This document shows, one piece after another, positions 24,776 to 37,602 of a DNA stretch of 64,000 bases (positions are counted from its first letter, which is position 1; each line of letters begins with the position of its first letter). The position numbers were made by a program, and so were the translations under genes. The notes under the pieces are model-generated. The model was not told where the DNA came from, did no database searches, and saw only the letters and a program-made list of their open reading frames with translations. Origin of the DNA: Oricola cellulosilytica (GTDB taxonomy: Bacteria; Pseudomonadota; Alphaproteobacteria; Rhizobiales; Rhizobiaceae); contig NZ_JAINFK010000005.1 of the NCBI RefSeq assembly GCF_019966575.1, forward strand, positions 62,001 through 126,000, written 5' to 3'.

Positions 24776-25471
24776 ATGAAGAAAAATGACATTCAGCTTG
24801 TGATCTTCGATTGCGATGGGGTTCTCATCGACAGTGAGGCGATCAGCGCAAGAATTCTCATCGAACAGTTGGCGGGCGTCGGCATCGATGTCGATGCGGC
24901 GTATGTGCAGCAGAATTTCCTTGGACGCAGTTGGGCCAAGGTTGCTTCCGAGGTGCGATCTGCTCACCATCTCGATCTTTCTTCCGACTTCGAGGAGCGT
25001 TACCGGCGCGAGCTGATGACCGCGTTTGAGAACGAGTTGCGGAGTGTGGACGGCGTGGAAACGGTTTTGAACGAGCTGGCGGTTTCCTGCTGCGTCGCTA
25101 CCAGCAGCAGTCCAAAGCGCGCATTACGCTCACTCGAAATGACAGGATTACTGCCTTATTTTGGCAAGCGCCTCTTCACCGCCTCGGAGGTAGCCAACGG
25201 AAAGCCCGCGCCGGATCTGTTTCTACTGGCCGCCGCCTCCTTGGGCTTCCAACCGCAGAACTGCCTTGTGATTGAAGACAGTGTTCCTGGCGTCCAGGCG
25301 GCGCGGGCAGCCGGGATGCATGTTTACCGGTTTCTCGGGGGAAGCCATCTGAGAGGCACCGCACCGCCGGTTCGGACGATGCCGGCCGATGTTGTGAATT
25401 TTGACAATTGGCGCGATTTCTACGAAATGGCGCCTCAATTGCGAAAGACTGCGAACGTGATCGCGAACTGA
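24776..25471 (+). CDS. HAD-IA family hydrolase (beta-phosphoglucomutase/sugar-phosphatase type)
   Basis: The 231-residue product has motif I IFDCDGVLIDSEA at residue 10, motif II VATSSSPKR near residue 109, the lysine of motif III in ANGKPAPDLF near residue 143, and motif IV VIEDSVPGVQAA near residue 165. The cap is C1. This is the subfamily of beta-phosphoglucomutase and small sugar-phosphate phosphatases. The stop is one base before the start of a SorC-type regulator, a pairing seen in rhizobial polyol loci, which suggests a sugar- or polyol-phosphate substrate. That link is inference; no polyol transport genes are nearby. Confidence 0.88.
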   Translation: MKKNDIQLVIFDCDGVLIDSEAISARILIEQLAGVGIDVDAAYVQQNFLGRSWAKVASEVRSAHHLDLSSDFEERYRRELMTAFENELRSVDGVETVLNELAVSCCVATSSSPKRALRSLEMTGLLPYFGKRLFTASEVANGKPAPDLFLLAAASLGFQPQNCLVIEDSVPGVQAARAAGMHVYRFLGGSHLRGTAPPVRTMPADVVNFDNWRDFYEMAPQLRKTANVIAN

Positions 25472-25472
25472 C

Positions 25473-26429
25473 ATGGCAAGCCGGACAGAAACCGATATCG
25501 CGAGGCTCGACGACGCGGCGCGGGCAGGCTGGCTGTATTACGTTGCTGGCAACACACAAGATGAGATTGCGAAGAAGCTCGGCGTTTCGCGCCAATCCGC
25601 CCAGCGACTGGTGTCGCTTGCAGTGAGCGAGAAGCTCATCAAGGTGCGGCTTGATCACCCGATCGCCCACTGTATGGAACTCGGCCACCGCTTGAGGGAC
25701 GAATTCGGTCTCGCTCACTGCGAGATTGTGCCAAGCGATCCGGATGCTCCCTCGTCGATTGTGGGGATTGCGCAGGCGGGCGCCGCCGAGATGGAGCGGC
25801 ATCTCAAGTCCAAACACCCGAAGATCATCGCCATCGGCACCGGACGGGCGCTCCGCGCATGCGTGGAACAATTGTCGCCGATGGACTGCCCCCAGCACTC
25901 GATTGTTTCCCTGCTCGGCAACATGATGTCGGACGGCCTCGCCACTGCCTACAACGTGGTCATTCGAATGGCCGAGCGCGTCAATGCGCGACACTATCCT
26001 ATGCCGCTTCCGGTTCACGCACGTTCGATCGAAGAGAAGCGCATTCTCCACAATCAGGAACCTGTCCGCAACATCCTGGAGTTGATCCGGCAGGCCGACG
26101 TCACCTTTGTCGGCATCGGAAATCTGGATCTCAACGCCCCGATCTTCATTGACGGTTTCCTGAAGCGCGACGAGATCCGCGCCTTGAACGAGGCGGGCGC
26201 CGTAGGTGAGATCACGAGTTGGGTTTTCGACAGGGAGGGACACCTGATCGAAGGACTCGCCAACGATCACGTCAACAGCGCGCCGCTTGTGCCGAATTCG
26301 CCCAATCCGGTCTTCGGGATAGCCGCCGGCGAATCGAAAGTTGCGGCCATTCGAGGCGCGCTTGTCGGCAAGCTCATTAACGGGCTCATCACGAACGAGC
26401 ACACGGCGGAGCTTCTGCTGAAAAAGTAG
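25473..26429 (+). CDS. SorC/DeoR-type sugar-binding transcriptional regulator
   Basis: The 318-residue protein begins with a winged or helix-turn-helix domain (AGWLYYVAGNTQDEIAKKLG then VSRQSAQRLVSLAVSEKLI, residues 20-57). A sugar-binding domain of the SorC family follows, with AIGTGRALRACVEQL near residue 111 and VGIGNLDLNAPIF near residue 210. Members sense phosphorylated sugars or polyols and control the neighbouring catabolic operon. Here the gene is second in a two-gene operon with a HAD hydrolase, and the tandem 21-bp repeat upstream is a reasonable autoregulatory site. The operon it would control has not been found in this window. Confidence 0.88.
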   Translation: MASRTETDIARLDDAARAGWLYYVAGNTQDEIAKKLGVSRQSAQRLVSLAVSEKLIKVRLDHPIAHCMELGHRLRDEFGLAHCEIVPSDPDAPSSIVGIAQAGAAEMERHLKSKHPKIIAIGTGRALRACVEQLSPMDCPQHSIVSLLGNMMSDGLATAYNVVIRMAERVNARHYPMPLPVHARSIEEKRILHNQEPVRNILELIRQADVTFVGIGNLDLNAPIFIDGFLKRDEIRALNEAGAVGEITSWVFDREGHLIEGLANDHVNSAPLVPNSPNPVFGIAAGESKVAAIRGALVGKLINGLITNEHTAELLLKK

Positions 26430-26500: not shown

Positions 26501-26905
26501 TCACCGCAACACGTGAACGGAACAATGCGCGTGACGGACGATCCGCGCGGCCGTCGAGCCTAGCAGGAAATCGCGAAGACCCGGCTTGTGGGATCCGATG
26601 ACGATGCAGTCGGCCCCGACATCTTCTGCATATTCCGCCAGCGTCTGACCGGCATGACCTTCGAGCAGAACCGGCGTGACCCCGGGATGGTTTTTCACCC
26701 GCTCCTTCAAGATCGATTCGGTCTTGTTGCGGGCCGTCCGCAGATCGTCTTCCGAAAGGTGGAAACGGACAGAGCCCTGCAGGGGCTCGTAGATGTGGAC
26801 GGCGAGGATCTCGGCTCCGTCATCGGCGAGAACGCTGGCCGCCTCGAGCGCCCGCTCCGAAATTCCATGCTCGAGCGAAAGGGCCACGATTATTTTCTTG
26901 TACAT
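26501..26905 (-). CDS. UspA-family universal stress protein
   Basis: A single Usp domain of 134 residues starting MYKKIIVALSLEHG. It carries the ATP-binding signature in CIVIGSHKPGLRDFLLGSTAARIVRHAHCSV (G-2x-G-9x-G-S/T form, near residues 105-125), so it probably binds ATP. The start has AAAGGA upstream. It is 62 bp downstream of the LacI-type hpsR-like gene on the same strand and might be cotranscribed. In Halomonas a UspA protein (TeaD) lies beside, and modulates, a TRAP osmolyte transporter; a similar role toward the nearby TRAP system is only a hypothesis. Confidence 0.9.
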   Translation of the reverse strand: MYKKIIVALSLEHGISERALEAASVLADDGAEILAVHIYEPLQGSVRFHLSEDDLRTARNKTESILKERVKNHPGVTPVLLEGHAGQTLAEYAEDVGADCIVIGSHKPGLRDFLLGSTAARIVRHAHCSVHVLR

Positions 26906-26967: not shown

Positions 26968-27993
26968 TCATGGCGTTGTGCCGGGCGGCGGGCCAAGCGA
27001 GCCGCGCATGACGATCTCGACGCCGATTTCAACGCGCGGTTCGACGGGTTCGTTCGCGATCAGCCGAAGCAGCACCTGCGCCGCCGCGCTTCCCATGCGC
27101 CGGTGCGGTACATGAACTGTCGTCAGCGCAGGCTCCACGAAACTCGCGATATCGATGTCGTCGAAGCCCGTAATCGAGATGTCGCCGGGAACGCCGAGCC
27201 CGAGCGCCTTTGCCCGGCTGATCGCGCCGACCGCCAGCACGTCATTGCCGCAAATCACCGCGGTCGGACGCGGGGTTCGTCTTACGAGCCTGTCGAAAGC
27301 GGTCGCTCCGTCTTCAAACGTGTAGGGCGCCTCGATGACATCGAACGACTTCACCTCCGATATAGCGCGGCGCATGGCGGATCTAACGCCCTCGACGCGA
27401 TCGGCGGCCCTGTCGTTCATCGAGGTGACGCCGGCGATCATGGCGATATCGCGGTGTCCCAGTTCGATCACCTTCGATGCTATTTCGGCCGCCGCCCTGA
27501 GGTTGTCGAAACCGATGAAATGGTCGGACGTATCGCCCAAATTCCACGCCAGCACATAGGGCGTGCCGCGCTGGCGCAGATAATCGTAGGTTGCCTGGGG
27601 GCGGGCCAAACCGATCAGCAGGAGGCCGTCGGCGCCGCGGCCGACAAGCGCCCGGACCTGTTCGGCCTCGCGTTCCGAATCGTAACCCGACCCGGCGACG
27701 AGCAGCGTCACGCCGGCTTCCGAGAGCGTTTCCTGGAAAGCCTGCAATCCGCGCGCGAAGATGGCGTTCTCCATCGTCGGAATGACAGCGCCGACTGTCT
27801 TGGTGCGCCGGGACGCCAGCGCGCGACCGCCGAAGTCCGGCGTGTAGCCGAGGTCCTTGACAGCACGCATGACCCGTTCGCGGGTGGCGGGGACCACGCG
27901 ATCCGGCTCGTTCAGGCATCGCGAGACCGTGGCGGTCGAGACGCCAGCGGCCCGGGCGACATCGTTGAGCGTCGGTCGAAAGGTCTCGTTCAT
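26968..27993 (-). CDS. hpsR: LacI-family regulator, HpsR-like
   Basis: The ATG at 27993 gives 341 residues starting MNETFRPTLNDVARAAGVST; a TTG nine codons upstream is less likely. The helix-turn-helix is residues 8-28 (TLNDVARAAGV, STATVSRCLN). The periplasmic-binding-protein-like sensor follows, with VGAVIPTMENAIFARGLQAF near residue 60 and AVICGNDVLAVGAISRAKALG near residue 245. It is divergent from the DHPS operon. In Cupriavidus pinatubonensis the DHPS cluster is controlled by a LacI-type protein named HpsR, which supports the call. Two operator-like palindromes lie between its start and the operon. The inducer is likely DHPS or a derivative, by inference. Confidence 0.82.
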   Translation of the reverse strand: MNETFRPTLNDVARAAGVSTATVSRCLNEPDRVVPATRERVMRAVKDLGYTPDFGGRALASRRTKTVGAVIPTMENAIFARGLQAFQETLSEAGVTLLVAGSGYDSEREAEQVRALVGRGADGLLLIGLARPQATYDYLRQRGTPYVLAWNLGDTSDHFIGFDNLRAAAEIASKVIELGHRDIAMIAGVTSMNDRAADRVEGVRSAMRRAISEVKSFDVIEAPYTFEDGATAFDRLVRRTPRPTAVICGNDVLAVGAISRAKALGLGVPGDISITGFDDIDIASFVEPALTTVHVPHRRMGSAAAQVLLRLIANEPVEPRVEIGVEIVMRGSLGPPPGTTP

Positions 27994-28048
27994 TGTCGGA
28001 AATCTGCCCTCTTTCGACAATCATGCCGAAAATCTGCCTTTTCACAAA

Positions 28049-28062
28049 TGTAATCGCTTGCA
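28049..28062. promoter_or_regulatory. Imperfect second HpsR operator candidate
   Basis: TGTAATCGCTTGCA matches the perfect palindrome at 28071-28084 at 12 of 14 positions. The two centres are 22 bp apart, about two helical turns, so two regulator dimers could sit on the same DNA face. It overlaps the proposed -35 box of the hps operon. Confidence 0.6.
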
Positions 28063-28086
28063 TCCTGTCATGTAAGCGCTTACAAA
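28058..28086 (+). promoter_or_regulatory. Candidate sigma-70 promoter of the hps operon
   Basis: TTGCAT (28058-28063) and TACAAA (28081-28086) are separated by exactly 17 bp, and the translation start is at 28113. The perfect palindrome occupies the spacer and the -10 box, which suits simple repression by the LacI-type protein. Transcript mapping would be needed to settle this. Confidence 0.45.
28071..28084. promoter_or_regulatory. Perfect LacI-type operator palindrome
   Basis: TGTAAGCGCTTACA is its own reverse complement with the central CG typical of LacI-family sites. It lies 78 bp upstream of the regulator start and 28 bp before the first gene of the divergent operon, so one site could control both. 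Confidence 0.75.
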
Positions 28087-28112
28087 AAGTTTGTCACGTA
28101 TGGGAGGAACAT

Positions 28113-28340
28113 ATGAAGCTTGGAGAAAAGCTGGCGTTCGTCGTGGCCAGCATTCTGTTCGCGATCTTCCTTACCAATGTCATCCTTGGTGCCGCGCGCT
28201 TTGGTGTGGTCCTAAGCGATGTGGGCGAAATGCTGGCGCTCTTCGGCGCCTGCATCTTTTTCGTGATCGCCGTGCTTGGGCTGGAGCGCAGGCAGCGTGA
28301 ATCCGGTCGGACCATTTCCAACCAGGGAGGAGATACCTGA
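28113..28340 (+). CDS. Small two-helix membrane protein at the head of the hps operon
   Basis: An ATG at 28113 with GGGAGG at 28102-28107 opens a 75-residue frame. It has two predicted membrane helices (FVVASILFAIFLTNVIL, residues about 8-24, and MLALFGACIFFVIAVLGLE, residues about 38-56) and a charged, basic C terminus. The stop overlaps the start of the TRAP binding protein by one base, so translation is probably coupled. I do not recognise a family. Its position suggests an accessory part of the transporter. A longer frame upstream of 28113 runs through the operators and is not coding. Confidence 0.72.
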   Translation: MKLGEKLAFVVASILFAIFLTNVILGAARFGVVLSDVGEMLALFGACIFFVIAVLGLERRQRESGRTISNQGGDT

Positions 28341-29491
28341 TGACTGACAAGAACCCGCGCGAGGCGCTGAAGTCCGCCGAGCGCCGCAACTTTCTCAAGC
28401 TCACAGGGCAGGGCGCCTTTACAGCCGCGCTCGTCGCCGGCGCCGCTGGGACGCTGTGGTCGGACGAGGCTGTGGCCCAGACCGCCAAAGAAGAAAAGGA
28501 GCGCGAGGCGGCGGCAGCGCACACGATGACGATCGCGACGGCATATGTGCTTGGCGCGTCGCGCAGCTACCCCATCATGCAGCTCGACTTCAAGGAGAAC
28601 ATCCAGAACGCCACTAGCGGTAAGGTCTACGTCAAGCTTGCGCCGGGCGGTCAACTCGGTGCCGGTGGCGCGCTCGCCCAAAAGGTGCAGGGCGGCACGA
28701 TCCAGGTGGCGCAGCATTCCCTATCGAACTTTGCTCCATTCGCGAGCGCTGTCGATCTTATCAATATGCCGTATTTCTGCGGCTCCAATCAGAGATTTAC
28801 CAACCTCGTGACCTCCGGCGCCTGGAAGAGTGAGGTACACCCTAAGATCGAGGCCTCTGGTTTCAAGGCGCTGTTCTACGTTGTCATCGATCCGCGGGTC
28901 GTCGCTGTTCGCCGAGGCGGCAACAAGGTGCTCACCCCGGGTGACCTCGCGGGGGTCAAGTTCCGCGTTCCGGGGTCCAAGATGCTGCAGCAGTATTACC
29001 GGATGGTCGGCGCCAACCCGACGCCAGTCGCGTGGGGCGAAACGCCATCGGCCATCAAGCAGGGCGTCGCCGATGCGCTCGATCCGTCGGTCGGTGCGCT
29101 TTACGTGTTCGGGTTCAAGGACATTCTGAGCCATGTGACCTTCACGCAGGCCGTACCCGACAGTCAGGTCTATTCGTGCAATCTCGAATGGTTCAATTCG
29201 CTTCCCGGCGACGTGCAGGAAGGGATCGAGTTCGCAAGCGCCATCACGGCCCAGCAGAACCTCGCAAAGGTTCCGGCGGCACGCGCCTATGCGATGGCTG
29301 AACTGAGAAAGTCGGGCGTGGAATTCCATACTCTGTCGGACGACCAGCTTGCTGAATGGCAGGAGGCCGGTGGTTATCAGCGCACCGAGTGGGACGAGTT
29401 CAAGGTCGAACTGGCCGGGTCTATGGATACTTTTGCCAAGCTCGAGGAAGCGGCCGGCACAATGGGCCGCTACTACGTTCACGACGCCTGA
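28340..29491 (+). CDS. dctP: TRAP transporter solute-binding subunit (DctP family), Tat-exported
   Basis: The 383-residue product has a twin-arginine signal (SAERRNFLK at residues 12-20, then a weakly hydrophobic stretch GAFTAALVAGAAGTLW). The mature domain is a DctP fold with a binding-site region GDLAGVKFRVPGSKMLQQYYR, where the arginine in FRVPGS usually holds the substrate's carboxylate or sulfonate. PTPVAWGETPSAIKQGVADA follows. In the DHPS cluster of Ruegeria-type bacteria a TRAP system (HpsKLM) imports DHPS; this is the likely binding protein. Tat export implies folding in the cytoplasm. A hairpin downstream may raise its mRNA level relative to the membrane subunits. Confidence 0.88.
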   Translation: MTDKNPREALKSAERRNFLKLTGQGAFTAALVAGAAGTLWSDEAVAQTAKEEKEREAAAAHTMTIATAYVLGASRSYPIMQLDFKENIQNATSGKVYVKLAPGGQLGAGGALAQKVQGGTIQVAQHSLSNFAPFASAVDLINMPYFCGSNQRFTNLVTSGAWKSEVHPKIEASGFKALFYVVIDPRVVAVRRGGNKVLTPGDLAGVKFRVPGSKMLQQYYRMVGANPTPVAWGETPSAIKQGVADALDPSVGALYVFGFKDILSHVTFTQAVPDSQVYSCNLEWFNSLPGDVQEGIEFASAITAQQNLAKVPAARAYAMAELRKSGVEFHTLSDDQLAEWQEAGGYQRTEWDEFKVELAGSMDTFAKLEEAAGTMGRYYVHDA

Positions 29492-29500
29492 CCCACGCCG

Positions 29501-29521
29501 GGGCCGGCATTGGGCCGGCCC
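29501..29521 (+). promoter_or_regulatory. Stem-loop between TRAP binding protein and membrane subunits
   Basis: GGGCCGGC (29501-29508) pairs with GCCGGCCC (29514-29521) over ATTGG. No U-run follows, so it is more likely an mRNA-stabilising or attenuating hairpin than a full terminator. Such elements are common after binding-protein genes, which need more copies than the membrane subunits. Confidence 0.6.
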
Positions 29522-29597
29522 GCAATTTGGACGGATTAAACCCATCGGCCTCAGACCGGCCGGCGCCTGACCGCCCATAGCGGGGGAGGAAGCAGCC

Positions 29598-30113
29598 ATG
29601 CCTGGAATTCTCGACGCACTGAACCGAAATGCCGAGCGCTGGGCGCTTCTGGTGTTCTACGTGATGCTGGTGGTGACCATGTTCATCGAGGTCGTTCGCC
29701 GGGAGGTGTTCGCCTACTCGTCGATTTGGGGCGAAGAGATCGTCCGCTACTCGTTCATCTACCTCGCGTGGATCGGCGCAGCCGCAGCGGTGAAGGAAAG
29801 AGGCCATATCCGGATCGACGTGCTCATGCATTATGTCGGCCCGCGCATCAAGGCTACGCTCTACATCTTTGGCGACCTTGTGATGATGGGCGTCGCCTTG
29901 GTCGCGCTCTACTGGTCGTTCGAGACGGTGATGGTCTCGGCCAAGTTCGGCTCGGTCAGCCACGGGCTCCGGGTTTCGATGGTCTGGTTCCTGGCGGCGG
30001 TGCCGATTGGATTCGCCCTCGTGATCTTCCGGCTCCTCCAGTCGCTCTTCCGCGACATAAACGATCTTCGTTTCGGCCGCCCCGCGTTCGAAGGCGACAA
30101 GCTTTTCGACTGA
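29598..30113 (+). CDS. dctQ: TRAP transporter small membrane subunit (DctQ family)
   Basis: A 171-residue protein with four hydrophobic segments, starting MPGILDALNRNAERWALLVFYVML. The family-typical region FAYSSIWGEEIVRYSFIYLAWIGAAAAVKERGHIRIDVL is seen across residues 37-75. Its ATG follows GGGGGAGGAAGCAGCC. It pairs with the DctM subunit 10 bp downstream to form the sodium-driven permease complex of the proposed DHPS importer. Confidence 0.9.
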   Translation: MPGILDALNRNAERWALLVFYVMLVVTMFIEVVRREVFAYSSIWGEEIVRYSFIYLAWIGAAAAVKERGHIRIDVLMHYVGPRIKATLYIFGDLVMMGVALVALYWSFETVMVSAKFGSVSHGLRVSMVWFLAAVPIGFALVIFRLLQSLFRDINDLRFGRPAFEGDKLFD

Positions 30114-30123
30114 GGAGACAGGC

Positions 30124-31455
30124 ATGCTCTGGAACCAACTTCAGAACCAGGGCGTCGACCTCGGCTGGGACTTCTACGGCCCCGTCCTGATTTTCGTTGC
30201 CCTCGTCGCCTTGGCCGTTCCCGTCTGGGCTGCGATCGGCGCTGCGGCGATCGCGATGCTGGTCTTCTCGCAGGCGCTGCCGCTCAGCCTGGTCGGCGAA
30301 AGCCTGTTCGACGGAATCGACGCCTTCGCGCTAACTGCGGTGCCCCTGTTCATCCTCACCGGCGACGTTCTGGTCCGGACCGGCCTGTCGCGGAAGTTCC
30401 TCGACGTGGCCGAGGCGCTGACGTGCTGGACCAAAGGCGGCTTCGGATCGGCTACGGTGCTTGTCTGCGGCATGTTCTCTGCAATCTCGGGCTCCGATGC
30501 TGCCGGCGCCGCCGCTGTGGGTAGGATGACCATCGACCGGCTGGTCGAGTCGGGCTATCCGCGGCCCTACGCCTGTGCGCTGGTCGCCGCCGGAGCCTGC
30601 ACCGGCATCCTGATTCCGCCGTCGATCGCCTACATCATCATCGGACTCGTTCTCGGCATCTCGGCGTCGACCCTCTTCCTGGCAGCGCTGATTCCCGGCC
30701 TCGCAATCCTCGTCTCGATCCTCGTGACCAACCTCATCATGAACCGGATCTATGCTTGGGAGGGCGGGGGCCAGATGACGTTATCGGAATGGCTTGCCCA
30801 ATTGGGTCGGGCGCTGAAATCCGGCTGGTACGCGTTCATCGTTCCGGGGATCATTTTCTACGGCATCTTCTCCGGTCGGCTGACGCCCACCGAAGCTGGT
30901 GCGACGGCCGTGGTGGTCACCATTATCATGGGGTTCATCCTCAAGACGCTGAAGCTCTCGGACTTCCCGTCTATGCTCGTCAGTTCGGCGAAGGTGAATG
31001 GGGTTATCTTGCCCATCATCGCGTTCTCGCTGCCGCTTGCCCAGGCGCTTGCGATCCTTGGTGTGCCGCAGGGCTTCGTCTACTCGGTTACCTCGATAAC
31101 CGAGAACCCGGCGATCTTGATACTGCTGATGATCTTGATCTTGATCGCGGCGGGCTGCGTGATGGAGACGACACCCAATATCGTGATCCTCGCCCCGATC
31201 CTGAAGCCCCTGGCCGATAACATCGGCATGAACGAGATTCAGTTCTGCATTATGATGATCACCGCGCTCGGTGTTGGGTTCATCACGCCGCCTCTGGGCC
31301 TCAATCTCTTCGTGGTCTCCGGCCTGACCGGGGAATCGATCCTGAAAATAGCCTACCGCGCCTTTCCCTTCGTCATCTTCATGCTCTGCGTGACGCTGCT
31401 GATCGCCTACATCCCGGCGATTTCGACCACGCTCCTGCCTGACATCTACCGCTAG
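30124..31455 (+). CDS. dctM: TRAP transporter large membrane subunit (DctM family)
   Basis: A 443-residue polytopic protein with about twelve membrane segments. Family landmarks are TAVPLFILTGDVLVRTGLSRK near residue 73, SAISGSDAAGAAAVGRMTIDRL near residue 120 and GACTGILIPPSIAYIIIGLVLG near residue 160; the C-terminal ITPPLGLNLFVVSGLTGESI is also standard. The N-terminal tail of about 20 residues is longer than in many members. It lies between the small subunit and hpsN with 9-10 bp gaps, so all belong to one operon. Confidence 0.92.
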   Translation: MLWNQLQNQGVDLGWDFYGPVLIFVALVALAVPVWAAIGAAAIAMLVFSQALPLSLVGESLFDGIDAFALTAVPLFILTGDVLVRTGLSRKFLDVAEALTCWTKGGFGSATVLVCGMFSAISGSDAAGAAAVGRMTIDRLVESGYPRPYACALVAAGACTGILIPPSIAYIIIGLVLGISASTLFLAALIPGLAILVSILVTNLIMNRIYAWEGGGQMTLSEWLAQLGRALKSGWYAFIVPGIIFYGIFSGRLTPTEAGATAVVVTIIMGFILKTLKLSDFPSMLVSSAKVNGVILPIIAFSLPLAQALAILGVPQGFVYSVTSITENPAILILLMILILIAAGCVMETTPNIVILAPILKPLADNIGMNEIQFCIMMITALGVGFITPPLGLNLFVVSGLTGESILKIAYRAFPFVIFMLCVTLLIAYIPAISTTLLPDIYR

Positions 31456-31464
31456 GAGAATTTC

Positions 31465-32772
31465 ATGTCCCGCACCTACCTCAAGAAGGCCGAAAAGACA
31501 TCGACAAGCGATGCGAGCTCCGTAACCGAGATCGTTCAGAACATTCTGAACGAGATCGAAGCGGGCGGCGAGGACGCGGCCACGCGGTTCGCTGAGAAAT
31601 TCGATCGCTATACCGGGAACCTGGTCGTGACCCGCGACGAGATCGACGCCGCGTCATCTCAACTGTCGCAAAAGCTGAAGGACGACATCCGCTTCGCGCA
31701 CGACAATGTACGCAAATTTGCGGAGGCGCAGAAAAAGACGCTCGGCGACGTCGAAGTCGAGATCGTTCCGGGCCTCGTTGCCGGGCAGAAGACGATTCCC
31801 TGTCAGGCGGCCGGCTGCTATGTGCCCGGCGGACGCTATAGCCATGTCGCTTCTGCGATCATGACCGTGACGACGGCCAAGGTCGCTGGATGCGATCATA
31901 TCGCGGTCTGTTCGCCGCCTCGTCCGGATGTAGGCGTTAACCCGGCAATTCTCTATACCGCTGACCTTTGCGGGGCAGACGCGATCCTCGCGATGGGCGG
32001 CGTGCAAGGGGTCGCATCCATGGCTTGCGGTCTGTTCGGCTTACCCTCGGCTGACATTCTCGTCGGGCCAGGCAATCAGTTCGTTGCCGAGGCAAAACGG
32101 ATACTCTTTGGCCGCGTCGGGATCGATATGTTCGCGGGACCGACTGACAGCTTGATCCTTGCGGATGCAACCGCAGACGCGGAGATCGTCGCGGCTGATC
32201 TCGTGGGGCAGGCGGAACACGGCTATAACTCCCCCGTCTGGCTCGTGACCGACAACGCCGATCTCGCAAATGCTGTGTCGCTGGCCGTACCGCGCCTGAT
32301 CTCGACCCTGCCGGATCTCAACCGCGAGAACGCCGAGGCTGCATGGCGCGATTACGCCGAGGTGATCCTTTGCGGTAACCGCGAGGAAATGGCGGCCACC
32401 GCCGACGAATACGCGCCCGAGCACTTGAGCGTTCAGGCCGACGATCTCGACTGGTGGCTCGACCGCCTGCAGTGCTATGGCTCGCTGTTTCTCGGTGAAC
32501 AAACCACGGTCGCGTTCGGTGACAAGGCGTCGGGCACCAACCACGTCCTGCCCACGTCGGGCGCGGCGCGGTACACCGGCGGCCTTTCGGTGCACAAATT
32601 CATGAAGATCGTCACATGGCAGCGCGCTACTGCCGACGGTGCGAGACCGGTCGCCGAGGCAACCGCCCGCATCTCCCGCCTCGAGGGAATGGAGGGCCAC
32701 GCCCGTACGGCAGACATCCGTCTGCACAAATACTTCCCTGGTGAAGTCTTCGACCTGACGGCGACGGAGTAA
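31465..32772 (+). CDS. hpsN: HpsN, sulfopropanediol (DHPS) 3-dehydrogenase, HisD superfamily
   Basis: HpsN oxidises (R)-DHPS with NAD to (R)-sulfolactate, a four-electron step like that of histidinol dehydrogenase. The 435-residue product shows the HisD fold: YVPGGRYSHVASAIMT near residue 119, DILVGPGNQFVAEAKR, FAGPTDSLILAD near residue 223, GQAEHGYNSPVWLVTD, the EHL segment in YAPEHLSVQADD near residue 315, and GTNHVLPTSG near residue 356. Position between a TRAP system and suyAB, with no other his gene near, excludes histidine synthesis as the main role. GGAGAA is found ahead of the ATG. Confidence 0.9.
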   Translation: MSRTYLKKAEKTSTSDASSVTEIVQNILNEIEAGGEDAATRFAEKFDRYTGNLVVTRDEIDAASSQLSQKLKDDIRFAHDNVRKFAEAQKKTLGDVEVEIVPGLVAGQKTIPCQAAGCYVPGGRYSHVASAIMTVTTAKVAGCDHIAVCSPPRPDVGVNPAILYTADLCGADAILAMGGVQGVASMACGLFGLPSADILVGPGNQFVAEAKRILFGRVGIDMFAGPTDSLILADATADAEIVAADLVGQAEHGYNSPVWLVTDNADLANAVSLAVPRLISTLPDLNRENAEAAWRDYAEVILCGNREEMAATADEYAPEHLSVQADDLDWWLDRLQCYGSLFLGEQTTVAFGDKASGTNHVLPTSGAARYTGGLSVHKFMKIVTWQRATADGARPVAEATARISRLEGMEGHARTADIRLHKYFPGEVFDLTATE

Positions 32773-32782
32773 GGATCCGATC

Positions 32783-33541
32783 GTGCCAACTCCCTCACTC
32801 TTCGATCTGGACGGTCGCGTCGCGTGCGTGACGGGAGCAAGCAGTGGCCTCGGGCGAGCCGCTGCAGCGATGCTCGCGGCAGCCGGTGCGAAAGTGGTCG
32901 GCGTTGCGCGCCGGCAGGATGCGCTCCACGAATGGCGGCACGAGACCCATGGTGAAACTGCCGCGTTGGCTGCCGATCTTGGTGACCGGGCCGGTCTGGA
33001 TAGGATCGCGCAGAGTGTGACCGTACTTTTCGGTCCTCCGGACATCCTAATCAACGCTGCGGGAATAAACATGCGCCAGGCTGCGGACGCCGTGACACCC
33101 GACGGGTGGGATTTGACGCTGCATCTCAATTTGACCGTGCCGTTTTTTCTCGCACAGGCCTTCGCCGGCGCGATGAAGGATAAGGGGTGGGGACGGATCG
33201 TCAATTTCGCCTCCCTGCAATCGCGCCGGGCGTTTCCCGGAGGGATCGCTTACGGGGCGTCCAAAGGCGGGATAGAGCAACTGACGCGCGCCATGGCGGA
33301 GGCGTGGTCGCCGCACGGCATTAACGCCAATGCGCTCGCGCCGGGCTTCTTTCCCACTGAACTTACGGGGCCGGTATTTTCCGATCCCGACCTTGCAGAT
33401 CGTAATGCGCGTCAAACCTGCATCGGACGCAATGGCGAACTCTCTGATCTCGAGGGACCCTTGCTGTTCCTGTGTTCGAAGGCGTCGGATTACGTCACTG
33501 GCCAGGTGTTGTTTGTCGACGGGGGGTTCACGGCCAAATGA
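32783..33541 (+). CDS. hpsO: Short-chain dehydrogenase, HpsO-like (DHPS 2-dehydrogenase)
   Basis: A 252-residue classical SDR starting at GTG (AAGGATCCGATC upstream). It has the cofactor motif VTGASSGLGRAAA near residue 17, NAAG at about residue 91, catalytic Ser in NFASLQS, and YGASKGG (YxxxK) near residue 155. In the Cupriavidus cluster, HpsO and HpsP together interconvert DHPS enantiomers through the 2-ketone, feeding the R form to HpsN. I assign the O name by gene order; whether this or the next gene is O or P is uncertain. Its stop overlaps the next start (ATGA). Confidence 0.75.
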   Translation: MPTPSLFDLDGRVACVTGASSGLGRAAAAMLAAAGAKVVGVARRQDALHEWRHETHGETAALAADLGDRAGLDRIAQSVTVLFGPPDILINAAGINMRQAADAVTPDGWDLTLHLNLTVPFFLAQAFAGAMKDKGWGRIVNFASLQSRRAFPGGIAYGASKGGIEQLTRAMAEAWSPHGINANALAPGFFPTELTGPVFSDPDLADRNARQTCIGRNGELSDLEGPLLFLCSKASDYVTGQVLFVDGGFTAK

Positions 33542-34533
33542 AAGCACTCGTCTACACAGGGCCGGAGCAACTCGAATATCGCGACGAACCCGAGGCGTCT
33601 CCGGGCGATGGGGAAGTGATGGTGCAGGTCGATGCGGTTGGAATCTGTGGGTCCGACATGCATGCCTATCTCGGGCATGACGATCGCCGTCCGGCGCCTC
33701 TGATCCTCGGGCACGAAGCAGCGGGTGTCGTCGTCTCCGGTCCCGATACGGGGCGGCGCGTCACGATCAATCCGTTGGTGACCTGCGGCCAATGTCAGGC
33801 GTGCCGGTCGCGGCGCAACAACCTCTGCCCCGATCGCCAGATCATTTCCATGCCACCGCGCCCGGGGGCATTCGCGCAGTTTGTCTCGATGCCCGCTCAA
33901 AATCTGGTGACCGTTCCGGACGGTTATTCGTTGGAAACCGCGTCCATGGCGGAGCCGCTGGCATGCGGCTGGCATGCGGTGCGCATGGCGGAATCGGCGT
34001 CGGTTATCCCCCTGGCGGAAGCGAAATGCCAGGTGATCGGAGGCGGAGCGATCGGGCTCGGCGCAGCCTTGGCGCTTGTTGCGATGGGTGCAACCGATGT
34101 CGCCATCGGCGAGACCAACACGCTCAGGCATCCTGCACTCGAAAACGCGGGGCCCGTCAAGATCTACAATCCACGGAGCGAAGCGGCGGTCGGCGATGGC
34201 GAAGCGGATATCGTCATCGACGGCGTCGGTTTCGCCGCGACCCGCGAGGCAGCTTGCCGGTTGGTTCGCGGGGGAGGCGTCATCGTCCATATCGGGCTCG
34301 GCGAAAGCACGGGCGGCCTGGATATCCGGCGGGTGACTCTGCAGGAAGTCACATTCATCGGTACTTACACCTACACGCCGGACGATTTCCGCGAAACGAC
34401 CGACGCCATGTTCGACGGTCTTCTCGGAAAACTGGATTGGGCCGAGACGCGTGCCCTTGCCGACGGCGTGGGCGCTTTCGCCGACATCCGCAGCGGACGC
34501 GCCGCGGCGCCGAAAATCATTCTGAAACCCTAA
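33538..34533 (+). CDS. hpsP: Zinc alcohol dehydrogenase, HpsP-like (DHPS 2-dehydrogenase)
   Basis: The start ATG at 33538 overlaps the SDR stop and gives MKALVYTGPEQLEYRDEP and 331 residues of medium-chain dehydrogenase. The catalytic zinc ligands are in GICGSDMHAYLG and LGHEAAG; structural zinc ligands are in CGQCQACRSRRNNLC, near residues 84-98. The Rossmann motif is VIGGGAIGLGAALAL near residue 165. Together with the SDR it would epimerise DHPS, as HpsOP activity is described. An open frame upstream overlaps the SDR and is ignored. Substrate assignment rests on context. Confidence 0.77.
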   Translation: MKALVYTGPEQLEYRDEPEASPGDGEVMVQVDAVGICGSDMHAYLGHDDRRPAPLILGHEAAGVVVSGPDTGRRVTINPLVTCGQCQACRSRRNNLCPDRQIISMPPRPGAFAQFVSMPAQNLVTVPDGYSLETASMAEPLACGWHAVRMAESASVIPLAEAKCQVIGGGAIGLGAALALVAMGATDVAIGETNTLRHPALENAGPVKIYNPRSEAAVGDGEADIVIDGVGFAATREAACRLVRGGGVIVHIGLGESTGGLDIRRVTLQEVTFIGTYTYTPDDFRETTDAMFDGLLGKLDWAETRALADGVGAFADIRSGRAAAPKIILKP

Positions 34534-34549
34534 TCGAAAAGGAAGAAAA

Positions 34550-34840
34550 ATGGCTGAAATACCGCAGCTGCTGGTTCACGACCACGACGATAATGTCGGC
34601 GTCGTGGTCATCGAAGACCTGAAGGCGGGTACGGACATGCTGGTTTGCGTCACCCATGACAATTCCACCTTCCGCCTGACGTCCAACATGGATGTGCCCA
34701 TCGGCCACAAGGTCGCCCTGAAAGATCTGAAAACCGGTGATACGGCCATGAAGTATGGCGAGGATATCGGCAAGATCATCGCAGATATCAAAAAGGGTGA
34801 TCACGTTCACACCCACAACTGCAAAACGAAACGCTGGTAA
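34550..34840 (+). CDS. suyA: SuyA, (2R)-sulfolactate sulfo-lyase small subunit
   Basis: A 96-residue SAF-domain protein that resembles the N-terminal domain of altronate dehydratase (UxaA). It starts MAEIPQLLVHDHDDNVGVVV and contains PIGHKVALKDLKTGD near residue 50 and the final HVHTHNCKTKRW. Separation from the large domain as its own short gene, directly before the 393-residue partner and within the DHPS cluster, is the SuyA pattern. With SuyB it splits (R)-sulfolactate into pyruvate and sulfite. AAGGAAGAAAA precedes the start. Confidence 0.9.
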   Translation: MAEIPQLLVHDHDDNVGVVVIEDLKAGTDMLVCVTHDNSTFRLTSNMDVPIGHKVALKDLKTGDTAMKYGEDIGKIIADIKKGDHVHTHNCKTKRW

Positions 34841-34852
34841 GGAAACTCGACC

Positions 34853-36034
34853 ATGACATCCGATCCATCAACCCGGACCATCAACGCCTGGCGCCGTGAA
34901 AACGGCCGCGTCGGCGTCCGCAATCATGTCCTGATCCTTCCGGTAGACGACATCTCCAACGCCGCCTGTGAGGCGGTGGCCAACAACGTGAAGGGCACGA
35001 TGGCGATCCCTCACGCTTATGGCCGTCTGCAATTCGGCGAAGACCTTGAATTGCATTTCCGCACCATCATCGGCATCGGCGCCAACCCGAACGTCGCCGC
35101 GGTCGTCGTGATCGGCATCGAGCCGGAATGGACGAAGGTCATCGTCGACGGAATCGCGAAAACCGGAAAGCCGGTCGAGGGTTTCTCGATTGAGCAGAAG
35201 GGCGACTTCGAGACCATTCGCCAGGCGGGCTGGACAGCCAAGGAATACGTGCATTGGGCCACCGAGTTGCAGAAAGAGGAATGTGGCCTCACCGAGCTGT
35301 GGGTCTCGACCAAATGCGGTGAAAGCGACACCACCACCGGCCTGTCATCCTGCCCGACCGTCGGCAACATGTATGACAAGCTGCTGCCGCACGGCCTCTA
35401 CGGATGTTTCGGCGAAACCTCGGAGATAACCGGCGCCGAGCACATCTGCGAGAAACGCGCCGCCAATCCGGAAGCGGCCGAAAAGTTCATGAAGATATGG
35501 AAGGCTTATTCCGAGGACGTGATCTTCGCGCACCAGACCGACGATCTGTCGGACAGCCAGCCGACCAAGGGTAATATTTTGGGTGGGCTGACAACGATCG
35601 AGGAAAAGGCACTCGGTAACTTGGAGAAAATCGGCCGGACCTCGCAATACATCGACGCCATCGGCCCAGCGGAAACGCCGTCCAAGGGTCCCGGCCTGTA
35701 CTTCATGGACAGTTCGTCGGCAGCGGCGGAATGCGTCACCCTGATGGCGGCGGGTGGCTACGTCGTCCATACATTCCCGACCGGACAGGGCAACGTTGTC
35801 GGCAATCCGATCGTTCCGGTGATCAAGATTTCCGGCAACCCCCGCACGTTGCGAACCATGTCGGAACATATCGACGTAGATGTGACCGGTGTCCTGACCC
35901 GCGAGATGACGATAGACCAGGCCGGCAACGCGCTGATCGAGATGATCGCTCGCACCGCCAACGGTCGCTTCACCGCAGCAGAGGCCCTCGGTCACCGCGA
36001 ATTTTCGATGACAAAACTATACCGGAGCGCCTGA
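34853..36034 (+). CDS. suyB: SuyB, (2R)-sulfolactate sulfo-lyase large subunit
   Basis: A 393-residue protein homologous to the C-terminal part of altronate dehydratase, a metal-dependent lyase. It has [21 protein letters not shown] near residue 13, [20 protein letters not shown] near residue 152 with cysteines suited to metal binding, and [22 protein letters not shown] near residue 281. The substrate is sulfolactate rather than altronate, because of suyA upstream and HpsN in the same operon. The product sulfite is toxic and must be oxidised; no sulfite dehydrogenase gene is in the window. Stem-loop DNA follows. Confidence 0.9.
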
Positions 36035-36050
36035 TCGAGGGCTCTACCCG

Positions 36051-36075
36051 CCGCCCGGCATCCCTCGCCGGGCGG
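36051..36075 (+). terminator. Stem-loop between suyB and the exporter gene
   Basis: CCGCCCGGC (36051-36059) pairs exactly with GCCGGGCGG (36067-36075) over a 7-base loop. It lies 16 bp after the suyB stop and 21 bp before the exporter ATG. There is no U-run, so partial termination or mRNA processing is more likely than a full stop. Confidence 0.55.
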
Positions 36076-36096
36076 TCTCGCCTTACCGGAAACTTG

Positions 36097-37104
36097 ATGC
36101 CAAATCTCTCCGTAAAATCAATCGGTTCACGCATGTCCGAGCTGTTTCCCGGGCTGTTGCTGGCGTTGACGGTGGCCACTGCAGCCAAGTTCCTGTCCGA
36201 GCATTACGGCGCGCCGGTCATGCTTTTCGCGCTGCTGATCGGAATGGCTTTCAATTTTCTCGCGCTGGATTCGCGTACGAAGCCGGGCATTGATTTCGCA
36301 TCCAGAACGCTCTTGCGCACAGGTATCGTGCTTTTGGGTACGCGCATCACTTTCGGTGACATCGCCTCCATCGGCCTGACCAGCTTTCTTACCGTGATCG
36401 CCCTGATCGGGCTGACGATCGGCAGTGGTTTCGTTTGCGCCCGATTGTTCAATCGCGGCTGGCGTTTCGCGTTGCTGACAGGCGGTTCGGTGGCCATCTG
36501 CGGTGCCTCGGCCGCGTTGGCGATAGCATCGGTCATTCCCCACAATGACAAGACCGAACGAAATCTGCTGTTCACGGTGGTTTCCGTCACCACGCTCTCT
36601 ACGATTGCGATGATCTTCTATCCGATCATTTTCCAGTTGATCGGACTTTCCGACAGCCAGAACGGCTTCCTTATTGGCGCGACCATTCACGATGTCGCCC
36701 AGGTCGTCGGCGCCGGTTATTCCATTTCGACGAAGGCGGGGGATGTGGCGACGATCGTCAAGCTGTTGCGCGTTTCCATGCTCCCGGTCGTGCTGATCGC
36801 CATCGTTTTCACCATGGCGAGCGCGCAGGGCAGCGGAAGCAAGGTGCGCTTGCCCCTGTTTGTGATCGGGTTCGCCGCGTTGACGGCAGCCAACAGTGTC
36901 GGCCTCTTTCCGGGGCCGGTTGCCGCCGGCGCGGTCAGCCTCTCGTCCTGGCTGCTGGTGGTCGCGATATCGGCGCTCGGCGTGAAGACCAACATGAAGG
37001 CAATGCTGGAATTGGGCTGGCGACATGTTGCAGTGGTGGTCGTTGAAACTCTTCTTCTTCTTGCGCTAGCCTTCGCCGCGCTCAAGACCGGCCTCCTACT
37101 TTGA
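36097..37104 (+). CDS. suyZ: SuyZ/YeiH-type putative sulfate exporter (PSE family)
   Basis: The ATG at 36097 gives 335 residues (MPNLSVKSIGSRMSELFPG); an upstream extension overlaps suyB and is not coding. About ten hydrophobic segments are seen. Family landmarks are FASRTLLRTGIVLLGTRITFGD near residue 66, LTGGSVAICGASAALAIASV near residue 128 and GATIHDVAQVVGAGYSIS near residue 194. This is the YeiH/Cons_hypoth698 group, whose member SuyZ lies beside suyAB in Paracoccus and is proposed to export sulfate formed from sulfonates. The position right after suyAB supports that role. The stem-loop upstream may reduce its expression relative to suyB. Confidence 0.87.
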   Translation: MPNLSVKSIGSRMSELFPGLLLALTVATAAKFLSEHYGAPVMLFALLIGMAFNFLALDSRTKPGIDFASRTLLRTGIVLLGTRITFGDIASIGLTSFLTVIALIGLTIGSGFVCARLFNRGWRFALLTGGSVAICGASAALAIASVIPHNDKTERNLLFTVVSVTTLSTIAMIFYPIIFQLIGLSDSQNGFLIGATIHDVAQVVGAGYSISTKAGDVATIVKLLRVSMLPVVLIAIVFTMASAQGSGSKVRLPLFVIGFAALTAANSVGLFPGPVAAGAVSLSSWLLVVAISALGVKTNMKAMLELGWRHVAVVVVETLLLLALAFAALKTGLLL

Positions 37105-37512
37105 TCGAATTCGCGCTTCGGTCTGCCGGAATCTTCAAATCTCCTCGCCAGAGCATCGCGATACTTCTGCACGCGGGCACATGACGGCGGGACATCGACG
37201 CTGCAGGGACTCGTGACTTGTTCACGCTGCGCTGAGGCAATCGAGTTCTTGCGCGAAGAGTGCAGGCTCGGCGGCCGGGGCTCTGCTGGCCGCGGATGCG
37301 GGGTTGAAACGGCGTCCTTACTGGCCGAGCGACGGCATTCGAGGGTTATCTCCGCTGCGTACGGACCGAAGACAGCAGGGCTGTGTAGGCTCGTGACAAA
37401 TATAGTTAAGAAATGGTTAATATTGTGATAGGGAAACGATGAGGTGGATTTGCAAGCACCAAGTATATTTATTAAATATCAATGACTTATTGTAATGAAA
37501 ATCAAATCTCTG
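37105..37512. other. 408-bp gap between suyZ and tRNA-Ser
   Basis: I see no convincing gene. The first 290 bp are GC-rich without a clear terminator; a 71-codon plus-strand frame (from GTG at 37213) resembles nothing. From about 37400 the sequence is markedly AT-rich, which is expected beside the tRNA 3' flank or at an island edge. Confidence 0.4.

Positions 37513-37602
<90 letters not shown>

Follow-up and report, generated by a model that had tools for sequence, protein, structure and literature searches.

A predicted DHPS-catabolic operon in Oricola cellulosilytica with a small membrane protein gene beside hpsK and signs of mosaic ancestry

Introduction

DHPS is an algal sulfur compound and an abundant carbon and sulfur currency between algae and bacteria, and genes for its transporters are read as markers of this flow. 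In a window of 64,000 nucleotides from Oricola cellulosilytica (the whole stretch of DNA analysed here), a run of transporter, dehydrogenase, dehydratase-like and exporter genes raises the question of whether it serves DHPS uptake and breakdown, and what the short gene at its head may do. With a probability of roughly 90%, we read the locus as an operon for DHPS catabolism in which suyAB and suyZ are attached to a cluster of the roseobacter TRAP type (hpsR-hpsKLM-hpsNOP-hpsQ), with the small protein as an accessory importer subunit and a mosaic origin. This reading is built on features taken from the sequence, namely gene identities, motifs, gene order, paired operators and the link between the small gene and hpsK. 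Marine bacteria are already known to have gene sets of this kind.

Results and discussion

Organization of the locus

All genes listed in an earlier, sequence-only reading of the DNA were recovered on the strands it had given, with only the LacI gene among them on the reverse strand (Table 1). Its description of the run as joined by overlaps or short gaps applies to most junctions (from the small gene to suyZ: -1, 106, 10, 9, 10, -4, 16, 12 and 62 bases), and fails at hpsK-hpsL and at suyB-suyZ. The hpsK-hpsL gap folds at -44 kcal/mol, and 33 relatives are listed with gaps of 24-277 bases there, counting only gaps of 20-400 bases.

Table 1 Features of the hps-suy locus and its flanks, in window coordinates
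Feature	Position	Strand	Basis or remark
UspA-family gene (HpsQ/TeaD-like universal stress protein)	26501..26905	-	UspF/UspG models below cut-offs; Zhengella homologue
LacI-family regulator HpsR	26968..28020	-	Pfam LacI and Peripla_BP_3
Operator 1, TGTAATCGCTTGCA, proposed HpsR site	28049..28062	.	Pattern in hpsK upstream regions
Operator 2, TGTAAGCGCTTACA, proposed HpsR site	28071..28084	.	22 bp from operator 1
Small gene, 75-aa two-helix membrane protein	28113..28340	+	Unnamed family
HpsK, DctP-type DHPS-binding protein, twin-arginine signal	28340..29491	+	PDB 24gc
Structured hpsK-hpsL gap	29492..29597	+	Predicted fold
HpsL, DctQ small permease	29598..30113	+	Pfam DctQ 3.3e-33
HpsM, DctM large permease	30124..31455	+	Pfam DctM 2.6e-89
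HpsN, predicted (R)-DHPS 3-dehydrogenase	31465..32772	+	PDB 8wwe/8v35, motif, catalytic residues
HpsO, SDR, predicted R-DHPS-acting	32783..33541	+	PDB 8wwf
HpsP, zinc dehydrogenase, predicted S-DHPS-acting	33538..34533	+	PDB 8wwd
SuyA, predicted (R)-sulfolactate sulfo-lyase small subunit	34550..34840	+	SAF domain; adjoins SuyB; Cupriavidus match
SuyB, predicted (R)-sulfolactate sulfo-lyase large subunit	34853..36034	+	GD_AH_second and GD_AH_C; Cupriavidus match
GC-rich hairpin, suyB-suyZ gap	36050..36076 (limits approximate)	+	No T run
SuyZ, predicted YeiH-type sulfite/sulfate exporter	36097..37104	+	TIGR00698 below cut-off; Zhengella match
tRNA-Ser(TGA)	37513..37602	-	Conserved landmark; cluster on its 3' side

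The range first assigned to the cluster (26968..37104) was too narrow. A UspA-family gene lies 62 bases beyond the LacI stop and very probably belongs to it; its product matched the UspF/UspG models below their cut-offs and is 71-72% identical to a Zhengella protein that also stands beside LacI. The sequence-only reading had missed three things: the UspA gene, the pair of operators, and the constant presence of the unnamed small gene with the TRAP importer.

In the available text of PMC4334477, the Ruegeria pomeroyi DSS-3 cluster is hpsR-hpsKLM-hpsNOP-hpsQ-slcD (SPO0590-SPO0598), with the UspA gene as hpsQ. The LacI regulator, TRAP importer, HpsNOP and UspA are common to both, whereas Ruegeria continues with slcD and the window has suyAB and suyZ instead, with UspA behind LacI; the comparison is with that text rather than with Ruegeria DNA, and neither SPO0590a nor SPO0591a stands in it. 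The Cupriavidus pinatubonensis cluster, given as hpsRNOUPsuyAB in the accessible part of PMC11382572, was compared through plasmid NZ_CP080769 (LacI 41%, HpsN 55%, HpsO 52%, HpsP 43%, SuyA 44% and SuyB about 65% identical). It has an MFS importer in place of TRAP, lacks the small gene, and has neither a UspA gene nor a YeiH exporter in its surroundings, which cover 18 annotated features. The whole layout (UspA, LacI, small gene, hpsKLM, hpsNOP, suyAB, suyZ) recurs in Zhengella mangrovi of the Hyphomicrobiales (loci L058/L135), and 24 of the 297 genomes from the window's order, its own among them, carry the small gene; the suggestion that the arrangement may be new for this order was thus not upheld.

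DHPS oxidation and desulfonation

HpsN matched PDB entries 8wwe (E 1e-201) and 8v35 (2.8e-158) far better than HisD (1.7e-73), scoring 673 bits to (R)-DHPS dehydrogenase versus 251 bits to HisD. According to the part of PMC11382572 available, the DHPS-dehydrogenase motif is G-R-Y-A/S-H and its HisD counterpart G-S-A-P-L; the latter is absent from the window HpsN, which reads G123-R-Y-S-H127 there, the DHPS type including the HpsN-only histidine. Residues Q249, H252, E319, H320, D353, K354 and H412 are all present and align with the CpHpsN residues given in that text. SuyA (96 aa) and SuyB (393 aa) form split small and large subunits. SuyB shares 65.7% identity with the protein that occupies the SuyB position in the C. 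pinatubonensis hps cluster, and no more than 37.7% with the UxaA-family proteins of the next group (E limit 1e-60); of 27 plasmid records matched at E 1e-60, 13 are at least 57% identical to it and the remaining 14 at most 38%, with none between. SuyAB is thus well supported as a predicted (R)-sulfolactate sulfo-lyase.

Database names would suggest something else, namely a histidinol dehydrogenase with an altronate/galactarate-type dehydratase in a sugar-acid cluster. NCBIfam calls HpsN "hisD" (446.5 bits, cut-off 243.8), the SuyB domains are GD_AH, and most plasmid records among the matches listed name the two proteins hisD and UxaA family. We consider this extremely improbable, as both parts are refuted by the HpsN scores and motif and by the SuyB identity split, and two further HisD-family genes in the genome (47% and 35% identical to HpsN) mean that HpsN need not be its HisD. 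The two checks proposed with the sequence-only reading, against true histidinol dehydrogenases and against altronate dehydratases, both came out for the DHPS pathway.

HpsO and HpsP adjoin HpsN, as expected for a TRAP-type hps cluster. The best PDB match of HpsP was 8wwd (E 2.5e-124; next best 2.4e-28), an entry named "zinc-containing alcohol dehydrogenase" that neighbours the HpsO and HpsN structures in the same PDB series, and the key residues H59, E60 and E139 are kept. HpsO matched 8wwf best ("(R)-DHPS dehydrogenase HpsO", E 8.7e-116), and its Q146 would correspond to Q147 of RpHpsO by an offset of one. HpsO is nearly as close to a gluconate 5-dehydrogenase entry (6le3, 7.5e-107). Together, the matches of HpsN, HpsO, HpsP, SuyB and HpsK support the hps assignment well.

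In the part of PMC11131964 available, HpsO and HpsP are both described as acting on C3, so two further activities would be needed for S-DHPS, a sulfolactaldehyde dehydrogenase and a conversion of S- to R-sulfolactate. The operon encodes neither, and the genome's sole Ldh_2 gene reaches 177.5 bits versus a sulfolactate dehydrogenase cut-off of 500. The route, earlier called complete from DHPS to pyruvate, is therefore secure for R-DHPS and not for S-DHPS.

Sulfur export

SuyZ scored 142.5 bits (E 1.7e-41) with the curated YeiH model TIGR00698, below its cut-off of 232.6, and is 77% identical to its Zhengella counterpart. A YeiH-type exporter, SuyZ, reportedly also stands beside SuyAB in Paracoccus pantotrophus. 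Whether suyZ forms a separate transcript, contrary to the sequence-only reading, and exports sulfate rather than sulfite is a closer matter, and we place this possibility somewhat short of even odds. The suyB-suyZ gap (36035-36096) folds at -27.5 kcal/mol, though its hairpin is without a T run, and the Zhengella suyZ likewise follows shortly 3' of suyB on the same strand. The genome encodes a Soe-like set of molybdo-enzyme, FeS and DmsC proteins that could oxidise sulfite internally; on the other hand, Sox can use sulfite outside the cell, and SoxC was found (645 bits, cut-off 420). The title of the Paracoccus SuyZ paper, as it appears in the reference list of PMC12421959, contains "...a sulfate exporter".

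A small membrane protein gene adjoining hpsK

HpsK matched PDB entry 24gc ("DHPS TRAP transporter") over residues 47-383 with E 6.5e-205 (next best 7.3e-19). The gene in front of it is the single undescribed piece of the operon and, in the genomes sampled, was seen only next to hpsK. Among the best 80 loci of a longer list, it was present in all 32 with an hpsK start and in none of the 47 without an hpsK match (hpsK is cut in the remaining one). Of 385 genomes sampled from the class, 15 have hpsK and 17 the small family, the 15 all being among the 17; all 17 loci adjoin hpsK, which is cut by a contig end in two. In the phylum sample, which shares some genomes with the class sample, the family occurs in 10 of 398 genomes, always adjoining hpsK. 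The family profile was trained on ORFs already known to precede hpsK, and the independent checks of the link are the whole-genome searches and the loci without hpsK. As a single query, the window sequence matched one of 72,556 plasmid records, and the profile found two more: the family diverges fast.

The AlphaFold model has helices at 3-27 and 36-69 (mean pLDDT 82.8). Across 52 of 54 distinct rows (L039 and L123 left out), F50 and E58 are invariant and N22, V23, G26, L43 and L55 exceed 90%, with the signature F..F..NV..GA ... fLxDV.EML.L ... FV..IL..E. No Pfam or NCBIfam family was assigned (matches were scattered, each confined to one or two members, with best E values of 0.0025 and 0.0028), and the best PDB match had E 0.1. 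A DctQ or DctM fragment was rejected, with profile hhalign probabilities of 0.1% and 0.2%. Broken copies were also considered and dismissed: an internal stop was counted in 3 of 17 class and 1 of 10 phylum matches, but in L146, L152 and L193 it sits past the conserved glutamate, the natural end of the protein, and L147 has an open family match.

Because the gene is so tightly linked to hpsK, we infer from gene linkage that its product serves the DHPS TRAP importer as an accessory membrane subunit. The stronger version, in which a 60-75-aa two-helix protein encoded at the operon head is an obligatory fourth TRAP component of DHPS importers, needed for high-affinity uptake, seems to us only slightly better than an even bet. 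The one-base overlap of its stop with the hpsK start could instead mean that the gene yields no working protein and acts as a leader ORF or couples translation to hpsK. This is unlikely given the conservation at the protein level, the variation concentrated at third codon positions (0.654 vs 0.507 and 0.362) and the variable distance from the gene end to the aligned hpsK start in relatives (-17 to +82 bases). The median pairwise dN/dS was 0.44 (456 of 1431 pairs with dS <2), a value near saturation, with some pairs >1. A role in the export or folding of Tat-exported HpsK is rather less doubtful, though still improbable: hpsK is directly next in 56 examined loci, and its twin-arginine motif (RRxF[LIVM]) occurs in 71 of 73 distinct hpsK loci. 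However, neither Pfam nor NCBIfam connects the family to Tat proteins or chaperones, and its conserved pair of membrane helices, with a short loop between them, would suit a membrane subunit equally well or better.

For extra TRAP subunits, a literature search found only a report bearing on TeaD. In the available part of PMC9006882, the ectoine system TeaABCD of Halomonas likewise links a UspA-family protein to a TRAP importer; its substrate differs, and that part makes no mention of a small two-helix subunit. The UspA protein of the window is likely a cytoplasmic partner of the importer.

Regulation

The LacI gene lies on the strand opposite hpsK in 31 of the 32 loci with an hpsK start among the best 80. 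At least one copy of the operator pattern was found in 62 of 73 distinct hpsK upstream regions and was missing from 11, and the 498,854 bases that lie downstream of the hpsK start in these loci contain none. Where a region has two sites, their spacing is 22 bp in 30 of 33 cases. The conserved pair is proposed as the binding sites of HpsR.

Proposed mechanism

HpsR would occupy the two operators, about two helical turns apart, and come off in the presence of DHPS or a product. HpsK, exported by the Tat route, would pass DHPS to HpsLM, which the small protein may assemble with or stabilise, and HpsQ may modulate the importer as TeaD does TeaABC. HpsN would convert R-DHPS with NAD+ to R-sulfolactate, HpsP and HpsO would bring in S-DHPS, and SuyAB would split R-sulfolactate into pyruvate and sulfite. 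The sulfur would exit via SuyZ, either as sulfite, for use by Sox outside, or, once oxidised by the Soe-like complex inside, as sulfate. As an extra marker, the small family would point precisely to the TRAP-type DHPS importer, and it offers a simple way to ask whether additional membrane subunits can occur in TRAP transporters.

Ancestry

Judged from gene trees, the operon has a mosaic phylogeny. It lies next to a conserved tRNA-Ser gene, where parts that differ in recent ancestry may have been put together. None of five same-genus genomes gave an HpsN match with E 1e-130 or better. No integration scar was recognised at the tRNA gene, as no exact repeat of at least 12 bases of 37491-37602 occurs elsewhere in the window.

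DctM groups with Zhengella (support 98/95 in the full tree, 88/84 in the reduced tree), whereas HpsN and SuyB of Zhengella fall in other clades than those of the window. A six-row SuyB group had support of 99/99 in the full and 61/57 in the reduced tree. A grouping of HpsN with four Hoeflea rows that left out H. halophila was rejected (p 0.0029), which is what one would expect with H. halophila as the nearest row. The choice of groups to test followed inspection of the first trees. Rows with <85% coverage were dropped, as were rows of 70% identity or less in the full HpsN tree, except Cupriavidus; the reduced trees used rows of >60% identity from a chosen list of 32 loci, and the HpsN tree was read by the sizes of the starred sets and the nearest rows rather than by all members. 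As the mosaic suggests, modules for import, oxidation and desulfonation can come together in one operon even when their recent ancestry differs. Stray long-branch rows in the full trees were L048 and L082 (DctM) and L021 (SuyB).

Gene content of the hps-suy operon

The hps-suy locus is a well-supported operon of a known and ordinary type, and its one undescribed part is the small membrane protein encoded at its head. The genes and strands that the sequence-only reading had listed for a route from DHPS to pyruvate were borne out by the ORF list, Pfam and NCBIfam. The genome spans 3.70 Mb in 12 contigs, with the window on contig 8 (bases 62001-126000); judging by the matches to Hoeflea and Zhengella, it probably belongs to a member of the Hyphomicrobiales close to the Rhizobiaceae. 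The intergenic distances on the + strand, from the small gene through hpsKLM, hpsNOP and suyAB to suyZ, are -1, 106, 10, 9, 10, -4, 16, 12 and 62 bases.

Judged by their protein sequences, the operon genes are DHPS genes. The best structure match of HpsK in the PDB was 24gc, the structure of a binding protein entered as 'DHPS TRAP transporter' (E 6.5e-205; runner-up 7.3e-19). HpsN matched the (R)-DHPS dehydrogenase 8wwe (1e-201) and Cupriavidus HpsN 8v35 (2.8e-158) and HisD far less well (1.7e-73), in line with the earlier assignment. Alignment and residue printing showed G-R-Y-S-H at HpsN positions 123-127, together with Q249, H252, E319, H320, D353, K354 and H412; by alignment, this set corresponds to the CpHpsN residues reported in PMC11382572, where the numbering is one lower. 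HpsO was closest to 8wwf, '(R)-DHPS dehydrogenase HpsO' (8.7e-116), with 6le3, entered as a gluconate 5-dehydrogenase, nearly as good (7.5e-107). The best match of HpsP was 8wwd (2.5e-124; runner-up 2.4e-28), an entry titled just 'zinc-containing alcohol dehydrogenase' that we infer to be the HpsP structure of the same series. HpsP retains H59, E60 and E139, which match the DsHpsP active-site residues reported in PMC11131964. SuyB shares 65.7% identity with the protein in the SuyB position of the Cupriavidus cluster and, as had been proposed, sides with hps-linked SuyB: at E 1e-60 it matched 27 plasmid records, which split into 13 at ≥57% and 14 at ≤38% identity. The gap between hpsK and hpsL is structured and varies in length from 24 to 277 bases among the 33 relatives listed; it may favour hpsK relative to the permease genes.

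The Ruegeria hps cluster also contains a UspA gene, named hpsQ in PMC4334477. In Zhengella, a UspA match (71%) lies 21 bases away from the LacI match; in some other relatives UspA adjoins hpsP, hpsM, hpsO, suyB or suyZ, and many relatives' loci are without it within the sequence stretch examined. Since the UspA protein TeaD is described in PMC9006882 as modulating the TRAP importer TeaABC, a TeaD-like role on the TRAP importer is plausible by analogy for the UspA of the window.

Features of the hps-suy locus and of related loci in the same genome (G000); positions are in the window unless a contig or locus is named
Feature	Location	Content or context	Remark
HAD phosphatase and regulator	24776-26429	HAD phosphatase, then directly a SorC/DeoR-type regulator	adjoins the cluster, no visible link to it
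UspA gene	26501-26905	same strand as the LacI gene, behind it	absent from the sequence-only reading
Palindrome 1	28049	TGTAATCGCTTGCA	between hpsR and the small gene
Palindrome 2	28071	TGTAAGCGCTTACA	between hpsR and the small gene
Small gene	28113-28340 (+)	75-aa two-helix membrane protein	5' of hpsK
hpsK-hpsL gap	29492-29597
tRNA-Ser(TGA)	37513-37602
Further palindrome pair	contig 8, 371410 and 371432	TGCAAACGTTTGCA twice, 22 bp apart	LacI-type
Taurine-type cluster	L133, contig 5, 363000-377000	Tpa-like aminotransferase, TauR-like MocR regulator, acetate kinase, Xsc, Ldh_2
Second HisD-like gene	L134, contig 7, 6943-8349	47% to HpsN	GKFPM where HpsN has GRYSH
Soe-like set	L197, contig 6, 3895-8505	965-aa molybdopterin protein, 263-aa FeS protein, DmsC	architecture only

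A small membrane protein gene linked to hpsK

Sequence comparison points to the small membrane protein as undescribed and tightly linked to hpsK. The best 80 loci among the matches listed comprised 32 with the hpsK start, 47 without hpsK and one with hpsK cut; a relative of the small gene was found 5' of hpsK in 32/32 of the first group, and the family profile found none in the 47 loci without an hpsK match. It was present in 24 of the 297 genomes of the order sample and 10 of the 398 of the phylum sample, every one beside hpsK. In the even class sample of 385 genomes, hpsK (E at most 1e-60) was detected in 15 and the small family in 17, which include all 15; the remaining two have an hpsK fragment interrupted by a contig end. 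These samples overlap in some genomes, including the window's own. The gene is absent from the MFS-type Cupriavidus cluster and therefore tracks the importer rather than the enzymes.

The ORF at 28113 is thus no oddity of this locus. Three plasmid records annotate the ORF at its place as 'hypothetical protein', yet the family profile matches each of them. As a single query, the window sequence matched just 1 of 72,556 plasmid records, so the family is fast-diverging. Divergence at codon positions 1, 2 and 3 (0.507, 0.362 and 0.654) has the pattern expected of a coding gene. Across 52 aligned proteins F50 and E58 are invariant, and N22, V23, G26, L43 and L55 are >90% conserved. Hydropathy shows two peaks, and AlphaFold predicts helices at 3-27 and 36-69 (mean pLDDT 82.8, pTM 0.56). 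Both termini are probably inside, given the short loop and the basic start of the C-terminal tail.

No relative of note was found in Pfam, NCBIfam or the PDB, and profile comparison rejected a piece of DctQ or DctM. In the Ruegeria annotation paper (PMC4334477), SPO0590 and SPO0591 follow in turn with no SPO0590a. No account of the protein was seen among the papers listed for extra TRAP subunits, or for DHPS with TRAP or hpsKLM; this is not proof of novelty, because most subscription papers lie outside that literature.

Ancestry and genomic site of the operon

The suggestion that the layout may be new for the order fails, because Zhengella mangrovi (Hyphomicrobiales) carries all of it. On gene trees, the operon genes are discordant in ancestry. 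DctM places the window with Zhengella (support 98/95, 37 rows). HpsN is closest to Hoeflea (85% to H. halophila), the genus that supplies all five of its nearest rows; the relatives with which SuyB clusters are Paracoccus and Pseudogemmobacter (support 99/99, identity up to 91%). Constraining the window with Zhengella was rejected for both HpsN (p 6.8e-5) and SuyB (p 2.4e-56).

HpsN was detected at E 1e-130 or better in 0/5 same-genus genomes. In all five (loci L184-L188) tRNA-Ser(TGA) adjoins rlpA, as in the window, and its 3' side, likely a variable site, differs from the window. In these genomes, the 15-17 kb examined on the side of the tRNA away from rlpA contained no hps gene, the sole match (33% to HpsO) looking like an ordinary SDR match. 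In the window, no exact-repeat scar was found at the tRNA. The cluster was therefore probably gained, or retained while sisters lost it, at this variable site beside the tRNA.

Putative HpsR operators

Of the 73 distinct regions upstream of hpsK, 62 contain the pattern TGYAANCGNTTRCA, derived from the window's own two palindromes, with a spacing of exactly 22 bp in 30 of the 33 regions with two sites. It did not occur 3' of the hpsK start in 498,854 bases from 93 loci (not de-duplicated), and occurred at six places across the whole own genome. This genome has one further pair, likewise 22 bp apart and with another core, which probably marks a separate LacI regulon. Because the consensus is of the general LacI/cre type, the specificity of the operators for HpsR is putative.

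Predicted DHPS degradation and fate of sulfite

HpsN would oxidise R-DHPS to R-sulfolactate, which SuyAB would convert to pyruvate and sulfite, and the R-DHPS route is most likely closed inside the operon. For S-DHPS, published views of HpsO and HpsP differ. In PMC11382572 they are described as DHPS-2-oxidoreductases, and HpsNOP as epimerising and oxidising DHPS; in PMC11131964 both act on C3, which would require a sulfolactaldehyde dehydrogenase and an S-to-R conversion encoded outside the operon. The genome has one Ldh_2-family gene, which by eye adjoins xsc (921 bits, profile cut-off 676), acetate kinase, a MocR-type regulator and an aminotransferase. It could encode a putative sulfolactate dehydrogenase, with no ComC assignment because its 177.5 bits fall under the cut-off of 500. 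The putative epimerisation by HpsNOP fits the operon content better than action on C3.

Two fates are predicted for the sulfite. One would be the Sox cluster (SoxC at 645 bits, cut-off 420; the rest by eye), and the other the Soe-like set, which may oxidise sulfite in the cytoplasm; its molybdopterin protein is without an evident Tat signal, and no NCBIfam model reached its cut-off in the set. With these two fates, the cargo of SuyZ may be sulfite or sulfate.

The apparent neighbours of the second HisD-like gene are an SDR, SnoaL-like proteins, a LacI regulator and a sugar-type ABC transporter; the locus may encode an HpsN-like oxidation pathway of a new type.
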